From assembly GCA_945860865.1 (NCBI GenBank), contig CAMARW010000008.1, forward strand, positions 62,001 through 126,000: a DNA stretch of 64,000 nucleotides. The letters run 5' to 3'. The position numbers and the translations under genes are program-made. This DNA comes from Chitinophaga pinensis (GTDB lineage Bacteria > Bacteroidota > Bacteroidia > UKL13-3). This document shows, piece after piece, positions 58,411-61,404 of the stretch; positions within the stretch are counted from its first letter, which is position 1; every line of letters begins with the position of its first letter. The notes beneath the pieces were generated by a model, which searched no databases, was not told the origin of the DNA, and saw nothing but the letters and a program-made list of their open reading frames with translations.

Positions 58411-59265
58411 GTGCAATCCATAAGCAGTAAAATCTATTCAGATAATTTTTTTCAAGAGTCGGCCATTAGCGATTATGAGCACACCTTATTTTTTGAGGCT
58501 AACCATATCAGTTCGGTGGTATCTGACCCTAAAAATAATCAAATTTTACAGCTGGCCATTTTTACTGCACCCGATGTAAATTTCTTAATGCTAAGTTATG
58601 ATGAGCTTAAATTAATTGAGCCATTAATGGAGTGCATTAAACCCAAATATAAGGAACGTAAGGTGGTCATTTCCTCACATCAGGTTAGTTTGGTTCCAGA
58701 ATCTTTATTAAACGTTGTAGAGACAGAGGCTTATTACAGCCTGAACCAAAAAATAATGCCCTCATCGCAAGTGTTATACTGCAAGATGCACGTGCAACAA
58801 ACGGCGGCGCTGTTTAACTTGCGCAATGAACTGATGAAGTTAATTCGTTTTGGAATGCCCATGGTGGATGTTTACCATGGCTCATTACTCTTTATAAAAG
58901 CGGTAGAATCGCAAGGGTTTGAGCAGGCAGCCAATAAATTACATTTGCAGTTACATGCAGGTTATGTGGAGATTTTAAATTTGGATCAGCAAATAAAATT
59001 CTACAACACTTTTACTTTTGAAACAGAAACCGAAATTGTATATTTTTTATTGGCTGCAGCAGAACATCTGCAAATTTCGCATGCTTGCGATGTGGTTTTA
59101 TATGGCAATTCGTCGCAGTTATCAGAATTATACAATGTACTACAAAAGTATGTTCGCTCGGTTCAATACGGAATAAAGCCAAAGCTTTATACTTATCCTT
59201 TAAGTTTTAAACAAATTGGAGAACATCAGTTTTTCAATGAATCTGCTGCTTTGTTGTGCGTATAA
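58411..59265 (+). CDS. DUF3822 protein
   Basis: The 284-residue protein has an actin/ASKHA-like appearance: N-terminal YSDNFFQESAISDYEHTLFFEANHISSVV, a middle YCKMHVQQTAALFNL, and a C-terminal VVLYGNSSQLSELYNVLQKYV. This matches the Bacteroidota DUF3822 family in order; function unknown. The frame is open upstream, and GTG 58411 is the first plausible start not in the divergent gene; a TTG at 58369 is possible. It overlaps rsmD by 10 bases, and DUF3822-rsmD pairing recurs in the phylum. Confidence 0.78.
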   Translation: MQSISSKIYSDNFFQESAISDYEHTLFFEANHISSVVSDPKNNQILQLAIFTAPDVNFLMLSYDELKLIEPLMECIKPKYKERKVVISSHQVSLVPESLLNVVETEAYYSLNQKIMPSSQVLYCKMHVQQTAALFNLRNELMKLIRFGMPMVDVYHGSLLFIKAVESQGFEQAANKLHLQLHAGYVEILNLDQQIKFYNTFTFETETEIVYFLLAAAEHLQISHACDVVLYGNSSQLSELYNVLQKYVRSVQYGIKPKLYTYPLSFKQIGEHQFFNESAALLCV

Positions 59266-59786
59266 TAGGGGGTCAAAAGGGAGGCATTAGCATTCAAGCC
59301 CCAGCAAATTTGCCAGTTAGGCCAACCACAGATAGGGCCAAAGAAAGCTTGTTCAATATTTTGCAAAATAAATTTGATTTTGAATCGCTCACCGTCCTTG
59401 AACTTTTTGCTGGAACTGGGAATATCAGTTATGAATTTGCAAGCAGAGGCGCAAAAAGGGTTCTCAGCGTTGATAAAGACGCTGGCTGCGTAATGTTTAT
59501 GAAGCAGATGGTGAAAAAGCTCGATTTTGAAACCATGGAAGTTCGCAAGCAAGATACTTTTACCTTCCTAAATCAATGCCACGAATCTTTTGACATAATA
59601 TTTGGTGATGCCCCCTATGCTTTGCCTAGAATTAATGAATTACCCAGTCTCATTTTTGAAAAGGGGCTGTTAAAAGAAAATGGATTACTTATTTTGGAAC
59701 ATGGTAGTTTGTTAAAGTTAGATGGGCACACACGCTTTAAAGAATCTCGCCATTATGGACAATCCACCTTCACCTTCTTCGTTTAG
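59256..59786 (+). CDS. rsmD: 16S rRNA (guanine966-N2)-methyltransferase RsmD
   Basis: The 176-residue methyltransferase starts at a GTG inside the end of the DUF3822 gene. RIIGGQKGG and RPTTDRAKESLFNIL are RsmD N-terminal signatures. The SAM site is VLELFAGTGNISYEFASRGA, with acidic VDKD after it. The catalytic motif, normally D/N-P-P-Y, reads GDAPY (first Pro to Ala), which is uncommon. A tandem-repeat array begins 25 bases after its stop codon. Confidence 0.88.
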   Translation: MRIIGGQKGGISIQAPANLPVRPTTDRAKESLFNILQNKFDFESLTVLELFAGTGNISYEFASRGAKRVLSVDKDAGCVMFMKQMVKKLDFETMEVRKQDTFTFLNQCHESFDIIFGDAPYALPRINELPSLIFEKGLLKENGLLILEHGSLLKLDGHTRFKESRHYGQSTFTFFV

Positions 59787-59810
59787 CGCCACTGATTTTC
59801 ACGAATAACC

Positions 59811-59962
59811 TTGCCACGGATGCACGAATATTTTTTGCCTGCGGCGGGTTATAGTATTGCCACGGATGCACGAATATTTTTTGCCTGTGGCGGGTTATAG
59901 CATTGCCACGGATGCGCGAATATTTTTTGCCTGTGGCGGGTTAGAGTATTGCTACGGATGCC
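59811..59962. repeat. Left tandem-repeat array, 46-bp period
   Basis: The unit beginning TTGCCACGGATGCACGAATA starts at 59811, 59857, 59903 and 59949 (period exactly 46), giving three full copies and a truncated fourth. A partial sequence with CACTGATTTTCACGAATAACC precedes it. It shares a core of about 33 bp, in inverted orientation, with the right array at 60541-60921. The rest of the 329-base gap (59963-60115) is unique AT-rich sequence and holds only the -7 box at 60059. Confidence 0.93.
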
Positions 59963-60058
59963 GTATAAATCCATCGTTAAATTAACAAATGTATTTGGCT
60001 TATTGGTTGGGTAGAAACTTATTGTTAAATTGAGATTTAAAGCTTTACAGATGTAAAT

Positions 60059-60066
60059 TATGTTTG
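60059..60066 (+). promoter_or_regulatory. -7 box upstream of the GxxExxY gene
   Basis: TATGTTTG matches TAnnTTTG and ends 49 bases before the ATG at 60116. No good -33 element; weak call. Confidence 0.35.
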
Positions 60067-60115
60067 TTAAATGCTCTTTAAAGCAGGCTGTTAGAAATAT
60101 TTTAAAAATATCTTC

Positions 60116-60490
60116 ATGAGTGATTTAATTTACAAAAGTGAAAGTTTTGCCATTATTGGCAAGTGTATGGAGGTTCATAATCAACTTGGATCCGGTTTCC
60201 TTGAAATTGTTTATAAGGATGCCTTGGCTTATGAATTTAAATTGGCAGGAATTCCCTTTGAAAGGGAAAAGCATTATGAAGTAAAATATAAAGGTATTGT
60301 TTTGCCCCACCAATTTATAGCAGATTTTGTGGTATATGACAAAATTATTTTAGAAGTAAAAGGCATAAAAAATCTCCCAAACGAAATTACTGCTCAAGTA
60401 ATTAATTACCTCAAGGTCTCTAATAACAAATTGGGTTTACTCATAAATTTTGGCGAGGCTCAATTAAACTACAAACGAATTGTTTTTTAA
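60116..60490 (+). CDS. GxxExxY protein (PD-(D/E)XK nuclease-like)
   Basis: The 124-residue protein has the name-giving motif Gly27-x-x-Glu30-x-x-Tyr33 (GFLEIVY) and a PD-(D/E)XK-like active site: Asp70 in FIADF, then Glu80-x-Lys82 in LEVKG, followed by a Q-x-x-N-Y-L motif (QVINYLK). Members are sporadic and often multicopy in environmental genomes; a nuclease fold is predicted but no function is known. The gene is intact and lies between two repeat arrays in opposite orientation, so a link between the protein and repeat spread or repair is tempting but unproven. Confidence 0.9.
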   Translation: MSDLIYKSESFAIIGKCMEVHNQLGSGFLEIVYKDALAYEFKLAGIPFEREKHYEVKYKGIVLPHQFIADFVVYDKIILEVKGIKNLPNEITAQVINYLKVSNNKLGLLINFGEAQLNYKRIVF

Positions 60491-60540
60491 TTAAAAAAGC
60501 GATCAACTTTAATTCAAAAGCCAAAGCCTAGAAAATTCTT

Positions 60541-60921
60541 GTCAATAGCCATCCCCGCCGCAGGCAAAAAAAATCAGTGCATCCGTGGCAAAAGATATTC
60601 GTGTCAATAGCCATCCCCACCGCAGGCAAAAAAATTAGTGCATCCGTGGCAAAAGATATCCGTGTTAATAGCCGTGCCCACCGTAGGCAAAAAAAATCAG
60701 TGCATCCGTGGCAAAAGATATCCGTGTCAATAGCCTTGCCCACCGCAGGCAAAAAAAATCAGTGCATCCGTGGCAAAAGATATCCGTGTCAATAGCCTTG
60801 CCCACCTCAGGCAAAAAAAATCAGTGCATCCGTGGCAAAAGATATCCGTGTCAATAGCCGTGCCCACCGCAGGTAAAAAAAATTAGTGCATCCGTGGCAA
60901 AAGATATTCGTGAAAATTCGT
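60541..60921. repeat. Right tandem-repeat array, about 62-bp period, six copies
   Basis: Units beginning GTCAATAGCC (or GTTAATAGCC) start at 60541, 60603, 60664, 60726, 60788 and 60850. Each contains CACCGCAGGCAAAAAAAATC and GTGCATCCGTGGCAAAAGAT. A truncated seventh start lies at 60922. Unit differences are scattered single substitutions. The array reaches almost to the coaD promoter. ORFs running through it are repeat artefacts. The 50 bases from 60491 to 60540 are unique. Confidence 0.95.
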
Positions 60922-60933
60922 GTCAATATTTTC

Positions 60934-60945: not shown

Positions 60946-61404
60946 ATGAAAAAAATTGCGTTGTTTCCAGGTACTTTTGATCCAATTACCGTTGGCCATA
61001 CCAACATCATTGCTCGTGCGCTTCCTTTATTCGACGAAATCATTGTGGGTGTTGGACATAACATCAACAAATTAACGCTCTTTCCAATAGAAAAAAGAGT
61101 AAATTGGATTAATGAGATTTACCGAAATGAGCCCAAGGTTACTGCAGATTTTTACGAAGGATTAACTGTAGATTTTTGCAAAACCATTGGTGCGCAGTTT
61201 GTTTTGCGTGGCATTAGAAACATGGCCGATTTTGATTACGAAAAAAATATTTCACAGATGAATCGCATGATTTACCCACAAGCAGAAACCATTTTTTTAA
61301 TGTGCGATCCCGAATTTACGCCTATAAGCTCATCTGTGGTTAGAGATTTAATCAGGAACGGCGGAAATGCTTCAGCCTTTGTGCCCAAAGAAGTAATTTT
61401 CTAA
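60946..61404 (+). CDS. coaD: Phosphopantetheine adenylyltransferase
   Basis: The 152-residue enzyme transfers AMP from ATP to 4'-phosphopantetheine in CoA synthesis. It has the nucleotidyl-transferase loop FPGTFDPITVGHTNII (T/H-x-G-H) at residues 7-22, RGIRNMADFDYE, and ISSSVVRDLI near the C-terminus. The start at ATG 60946 gives the standard MKKIALFPGTFDP; a reading open upstream to 60886 runs through repeats. Its stop overlaps the convergent NUDIX gene by 4 bases. Confidence 0.96.
   Translation: MKKIALFPGTFDPITVGHTNIIARALPLFDEIIVGVGHNINKLTLFPIEKRVNWINEIYRNEPKVTADFYEGLTVDFCKTIGAQFVLRGIRNMADFDYEKNISQMNRMIYPQAETIFLMCDPEFTPISSSVVRDLIRNGGNASAFVPKEVIF

Follow-up and report, generated by a model that had tools for sequence, protein, structure and literature searches.

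GxxExxY nuclease-family genes lie between matched inverted arrays of short words and may form a small mobile element

GxxExxY nuclease genes and the inverted arrays of short words on either side of them probably make up a small mobile element, minimal and REP/MITE-like, whose words are recognized by the nuclease. The words at the two ends of one gene match each other in inverted orientation, their type follows the protein subfamily, and similar words are scattered through genomes that carry the gene. The locus that we describe first lies in the window (the whole stretch of 64,000 nucleotides that was analyzed), which comes from a 2.59-Mb genome in 13 contigs, here called G000. The features of the locus are as follows.

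59256 to 59786, + strand: rsmD (16S rRNA methyltransferase family, PF03602), the left host neighbor; Pfam Cons_hypoth95, E = 3e-37
59788 to 59810, + strand: outer left words CCACTGATTTTCACGAATAACC, immediately 3' of the rsmD stop codon; identified in the sequence and by alignment with the outer right words in reverse complement
59811 to 59961, + strand: left tandem array of 46-bp units TTGCCACGGATGCACGAATATTTTTTGCCTGYGGCGGGTTATAGTA, with the words in + orientation; TRF period 46, 3.3 copies, 94% match
60116 to 60490, + strand: GxxExxY gene, 124 aa, PD-(D/E)XK nuclease family, LEIVYKD subfamily; TIGR04256, PF13366, alignments, and AlphaFold
60540 to 60912, - strand: right tandem array of 62-bp units, with the left-array words inverted (GCCACGGATGCACTGATTTTTTTTGCCTGCGGTGGG on the minus strand); TRF period 62, 6.0 copies, 93% match
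60906 to 60927, - strand: outer right words ATTCGTGAAAATTCGTGTCAAT, which stop 18 bp short of the coaD start codon; identified in the sequence and by alignment with the outer left words
60946 to 61404, + strand: coaD (phosphopantetheine adenylyltransferase), the right host neighbor; PF01467, E = 2e-18

Read from left to right, rsmD is followed by the outer words CCACTGATTTTCACGAAT, the 46-bp array (×3.3), the 124-codon gene, the 62-bp array (×6), the reversed outer words, and coaD. The two flanking arrays are the two top-scoring tandem arrays of the window by TRF. When the left flank was aligned with the reverse complement of the right flank, the score was 108, and the maximum in 200 shuffles was 29. 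An earlier, sequence-only reading of this DNA had described an intact GxxExxY gene between two tandem arrays of opposite orientation, with units of 46 bp on the left and about 62 bp on the right. The TRF periods, the protein profiles, and the inverted alignment score bear out this description. The inverted core that it placed in both arrays is also real, but its length is about 37 bp and not 33 bp; the common unit is TTGCCACGGATGCAC(G/T)(A/G)AT(A/T)TTTTTTGCCTG(C/T)GG(C/T)GGG. An Rfam search of the region gave no match above the gathering score.

The window protein is a clear member of TIGR04256 (140 bits, E = 4e-41; curated cut-off, 35 bits) and of PF13366, PDDEXK_3 (128 bits, E = 4e-37; cut-off, 22 bits), and it is a predicted nuclease. 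Alignments with relatives showed that the PD-(D/E)XK residues D70 and E80-x-K82 are intact, in agreement with the active site proposed in the sequence-only reading, and that the motif residues G27, E30, and Y33 are conserved. The AlphaFold model of the protein has a mean pLDDT of 96. Its nearest solved fold is Cas4 SSO0001 (E = 2e-4; TM, 0.51 to 0.61), and the next neighbors are lambda exonuclease and RecB-type nucleases. A sequence search of solved structures with the window protein returned no relative, and a profile search found PDDEXK_3 and GxxExxY only, with no known transposase or recombinase domain.

Matched inverted flanks recur at other GxxExxY genes, which were chosen by protein profile alone, with the flanks not considered. 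For 26 of 40 relatives, the inverted match between the 300-bp flanks scored higher than the 99th percentile for controls, which were 316 ORFs on the same contigs. An independent set of named genomes had 60 of 79 loci above the 95th percentile for inverted flanks. The same level was exceeded by 19 of 27 loci in ten genomes from the named set, mostly outside the class of the window genome (records named Planctomycetota, Acidobacteria, Treponema, Methylobacter, Spartobacteria, Melioribacteraceae, Ignavibacteria, and others). Pooled, 168 of 219 loci lay above the 95th percentile and 138 above the 99th (expected, 11 and 2), against random windows on the same contigs; some high-scoring controls may lie in other repeats, which makes the pooled test conservative, and these are loci of draft genomes that are not independent within a clade and whose arrays break assemblies.

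The flanks are series of 7- to 12-bp words with a period of about 8 to 12 bp, in one orientation on the left and in the opposite orientation on the right. CRCDRAK, the box of the common subfamily, was defined on the first set (40 loci) and confirmed on the second set. It occurs on the + strand just upstream of the gene at 1.9 to 2.0 per 150 bp and on the - strand just downstream at 2.3 to 2.7 per 150 bp, and the background farther from the gene is 0.1 to 0.3 per 150 bp. Because other subfamilies have other words, this fixed pattern underestimates the flanks, and we therefore added inverted-repeat tests based on alignment. The left and right ends of the same locus fit each other better than random pairs do (z = 35 for 154 loci), also among the 17 paralogues of a single genome, G043 (z = 9.7), and at variable positions the bases of the left boxes correlate with those of the right boxes (rho, 0.73 and 0.77). 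Therefore, the two ends of one copy agree, and the words vary between copies. Many of the G043 elements (L262, L265, L272, L077, L278, and L280) are surrounded by a further inverted motif, GTTACT.. on the left and ..AGTAAC on the right, which is possibly a pre-existing palindrome that serves as an insertion target. At loci L088 and L101, the right-end words fall within the first part of the gene 3' of GxxExxY, where they seem to encode the signal-peptide part of that gene (LCLCASVV and LCALCASA).

Comparison of the proteins with their flanks supports the view that repeat type tracks protein subfamily, both within one genome and across phyla. Across loci, protein identity correlated with cross-end word similarity with a rho of 0.36, and none of 500 permutations gave a value as high. 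Within G043, where the genome background is constant, the Mantel rho was 0.35 (1 of 2,000 permutations as high), and paralogues that are only 44 to 59% identical still have a common word type. With subfamily labels that are based on short motifs and words that were named after inspection of these loci, GCCAC[AGT][AG]AT is found at both ends of 8 of 10 loci of the LEIVYKD subfamily, to which the window protein belongs, and of 0 of 211 others (p = 4e-13, where kinship makes the p-values too small). The carriers of this word include members of Ignavibacteria and Melioribacteraceae. On the same labels, TACGAA words are present at both ends for 4 of 5 GHxE proteins versus 4 of 216 others, and C[AG]CA[AG]AG is present in 89 of 156 loci of the GPG main group versus 7 of 65. 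Some correlation of word with protein is expected merely because a duplicated gene carries its own flanks. Common descent of untethered intergenic DNA can hardly account for words that agree across phyla and at about 45% identity.

We also counted repeats genome-wide by pattern search, with three word-pair patterns in 60 genomes. Genomes with a GxxExxY gene had 20.4 word-pair sites per genome and those without it had 1.9 (p = 1e-7); reversed control patterns gave 1.5. The association with gene presence was also found within the genus of the window genome (p = 0.001), and in a rank regression the GxxExxY gene count remained the strongest predictor with S23 count and genome size taken into account. 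For the pattern with a complete list of sites, 96 of 112 lie far from any GxxExxY gene, and these solo sites alone track gene presence (p = 4e-4). The co-occurrence data support a dependence of the solo repeats on the gene. The sequence-only reading had singled out joint occurrence of gene and repeats as informative, and this is what we found: GxxExxY copies are rarely without repeats, and repeats distant from the gene are present essentially only in gene-bearing genomes. Its remark that GxxExxY genes are often multicopy holds for many relatives, but not for G000, where the family is single copy.

The core TGCCACGGATGCRCGAAT was matched 47 times in G000 when up to 3 mismatches were allowed; these matches form about 11 clusters, and ten of the clusters are away from the gene. 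The reversed core pattern has 0 matches in this genome. Other word types are near-absent from it (0 CCACARAG; 3 CGCARAK versus 1 in the control), as expected if the single LEIVYKD-type gene sets the type. G043 also has gene-less palindromes, each about 60 bp long, whose ends are those of its gene-bearing elements. The end of L041 and the start of L039, on contigs C12 and C7 of G000, have a reverse-complement sequence in common that runs through a word array, and to judge from this sequence the two contigs probably join at the shared array.

Several junctions are occupied in some genomes and empty in others. rsmD and coaD are joined directly in 14 congeners in which both genes were resolved. 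The junction is filled in G000, in its sister G001, and in G004, where the gene has the opposite orientation. One contig of G001 (L299) carries rsmD, array, gene, and array, and another carries array and coaD. The gene region is about 84% identical between G000 and G001, and turnover has changed the arrays on either side, with 46-bp units containing CACGGAT in G000 versus units of about 23 bp containing CACGAAT in G001. A second junction, 5' of a gene for a DegT-type aminotransferase, is empty in at least two congeners, G004 and G007 (67 to 68 bp). At this junction, G001 has a GxxExxY element with CGCAGAT-type words and G002 has one with CACAAAG-type words; G000, G010, and G011 have S23/four-helix-bundle-like elements with very different words. 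Neither a target-site duplication, for which the empty sites are too diverged, nor a precise excision was resolved. No transposition was observed between strains that are nearly identical, which, like the single gene copy in G000, speaks against mobility. Repeated use of the same junctions could reflect old insertions with later replacement. Between the halves of a split metH (L076, L080, L084, L104, L153, L158, and L159), some genomes have GxxExxY elements and others have S23 elements; this junction is a putative insertion hot spot common to both kinds of element, in several families.

We suggest that the Cas4/RecB-like PD-(D/E)XK nuclease recognizes flanking words that are specific to its own subfamily. 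The candidate words are GCCAC[AGT][AG]AT-n-CAC[AGT][AG]AT for the window subfamily, (A)CCRCARAG for the common one, TACGAAT for another, and GTCTGAAC..GATT for a fourth. The nuclease would most likely nick or cut at these words, either in duplex or in a hairpin formed by the inverted arrays. Host repair or replication would then copy the element, or a gene-less word pair or array, into other intergenic junctions, in a manner analogous to the action of transposases on MITEs and of RAYTs on REPs. The long arrays of the window may have arisen by slippage at the words or by their repeated processing. We infer the binding, the cutting, the mobilization, and the copying route; cutting at the words followed by host repair would be the simplest course for a lone Cas4/RecB-like nuclease. 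The sequence-only reading had likewise proposed that the protein may act on these repeats. More tentatively, GxxExxY genes may represent a new class of minimal mobile element, in which a lone PD-(D/E)XK nuclease moves itself and its gene-less derivatives by way of subfamily-specific word arrays, and the unrelated S23/four-helix-bundle family may have converged on the same architecture and junctions.

The matched flanks could instead act in RNA. In this scenario, base-pairing between the arrays within the mRNA would exclude the small gene from the operon as a loop, as with the S23-encoding intervening sequences of 23S rRNA, and insertion between co-transcribed genes would be harmless. The best support for such looping out is the orientation of the genes: 76 GxxExxY genes are co-directional with the flanking genes and 9 are opposite, and 21 of 23 S23 genes are co-directional. 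Such strong co-directionality is unusual for a free transposon. The elements also closely fill the space from stop codon to start codon, and variable tandem heptamers are present at the end of a known S23 intervening sequence, from Coxiella (PMC4990558). However, pairing in RNA predicts an excess of G.U on the sense strand, and we observed 260 G.U and 275 A.C (p = 0.55). Therefore, the matching of the flanks is maintained as DNA and not as RNA. By duplex energies, the arrays pair no more stably in the sense strand than in the antisense strand; elements are also present between genes that are not co-directional, and one-sided solo arrays exist. The orientation bias can also arise from purging of insertions opposed to transcription or from reliance of the gene on read-through transcription. 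We consider an RNA-level element unlikely.

A homing-type drive, in which the nuclease cuts an empty intergenic junction and spreads by gene conversion with the words as borders only, would fit the occupation of the rsmD-coaD, DegT, and metH junctions in several genomes and the empty alleles of congeners. However, elements at one junction differ in their words and even in gene family, solo words are spread over unrelated sites, the type of word goes with the protein and not with the site, and the G004 element is reversed. We regard homing as rather improbable, and we give an equally low probability to a passenger role, in which the word arrays would be an independent repeat family with another driver and the GxxExxY genes would tolerate or prefer these sites. 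The roughly ten word clusters far from the gene in G000, and the unrelated S23 genes at some of the same junctions, would be natural for passengers; that protein subfamily predicts word type within a genome and across phyla, that genomes without the gene lack the words even if S23 genes are present, and that every gene has its own matched word pair would not. It is very unlikely that the words are operators by which GxxExxY autoregulates or marks self DNA, as in restriction or toxin-antitoxin systems, with the repeats spread by slippage and recombination. Several short sites at helical-scale spacing on both sides of the gene do resemble binding-site arrays, but operators would be expected upstream only, and they do not explain the genome-wide solo elements, the inverted orientation on both sides, or the empty sites.

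The mobile element that we favor, a nuclease gene with its cognate word arrays, resembles several known systems in part. As in REP-RAYT systems, a small dispersed nuclease gene lies between inverted repeat copies, solo repeats occur genome-wide, and repeat type is matched to the cognate protein. The sequence-only reading had noted a REP/RAYT-like layout, and the inverted flanks, the solo repeats, and the subfamily match extend this likeness beyond the single locus. However, the protein is not a RAYT, since RAYTs are HUH/Y1 proteins and GxxExxY has a PD-(D/E)XK fold. A REP is one imperfect palindrome of 20 to 40 nt, whereas GxxExxY ends are tandem 7- to 12-bp words; the window arrays are local amplifications of the terminal words and not classical REPs. 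GxxExxY elements also differ from REP-RAYT systems in being found mainly in Bacteroidota, Ignavibacteria, and other phyla. Like IS elements and their MITEs, they have one gene between terminal inverted repeats, gene-less derivatives, and presence or absence at orthologous sites. Unlike these, they are without a DDE, HUH, serine, or tyrosine recombinase domain, are strongly co-directional with host genes, and have no target-site duplication resolved at the diverged empty sites. In logic, the element works like REP-RAYT and IS-MITE pairs, but each of these is defined by a protein feature that GxxExxY elements lack, and we therefore file the element as neither.

The S23 intervening sequences of 23S rRNA also contain a short ORF between inverted repeats with tandem short words, and S23 genes outside rRNA have the architecture and even junctions in common with GxxExxY elements. 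In contrast to S23, the GxxExxY protein is an unrelated nuclease, with other words and no sign of RNA-level selection, and the window element lies between rsmD and coaD, not in rRNA. Cas4 and RecB-like nucleases provide the nearest solved folds of the window protein model, but no cas genes are present between rsmD and coaD, and the window protein, at 124 aa, is much shorter than Cas4 and without the Fe-S cysteine cluster. For the TIGR04256/PF13366 family, candidate cognate word arrays are identified here. A search of the open-access literature (5.39 million papers) turned up two papers that name GxxExxY, neither of them about repeats, and no description of the partner DNA or function of GxxExxY or of a link to repeats. 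GxxExxY is a widely annotated family without an assigned function, which would have a testable role if the word arrays are its partner DNA. Common unexplained intergenic repeats of Bacteroidota (e.g., CTTTGTGTCCTTTGTGGTTAA and ATCTGTGTAATCTGTGG) would then gain an owner, and a nuclease of the Cas4/RecB type would be seen to be capable of driving a REP/MITE-like population with no classical transposase involved. For studies of specificity, the subfamilies supply a natural set of nuclease-word pairs.

S23 genes have the same inverted-word layout as GxxExxY genes, with different words, and the own partner of an end ranks first in 18 of 23. S23 intervening elements have been suspected of past mobility (PMC4990558). 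S23 genes were considered as owners of the GxxExxY words and rejected: these words are flat around S23 genes and are absent from genomes that bear S23 and are free of GxxExxY. In G000, S23 genes (PF05635) outside rRNA, at G000:C1:281058-281372 (L159) and in the DNA inserted upstream of G000:C1:744705 (L247), each lie between inverted arrays of short words of their own (e.g., TGAGGTATGAGTGATGAGG), which differ in type from the GxxExxY words. S23-type words (CCAGCTGCCAGTTGCCAGC) are also interleaved in or beside GxxExxY-type arrays, at L299:660-800 and 1460-1500 and at L036:1080-1140, as though one element family inserts in the arrays of the other.
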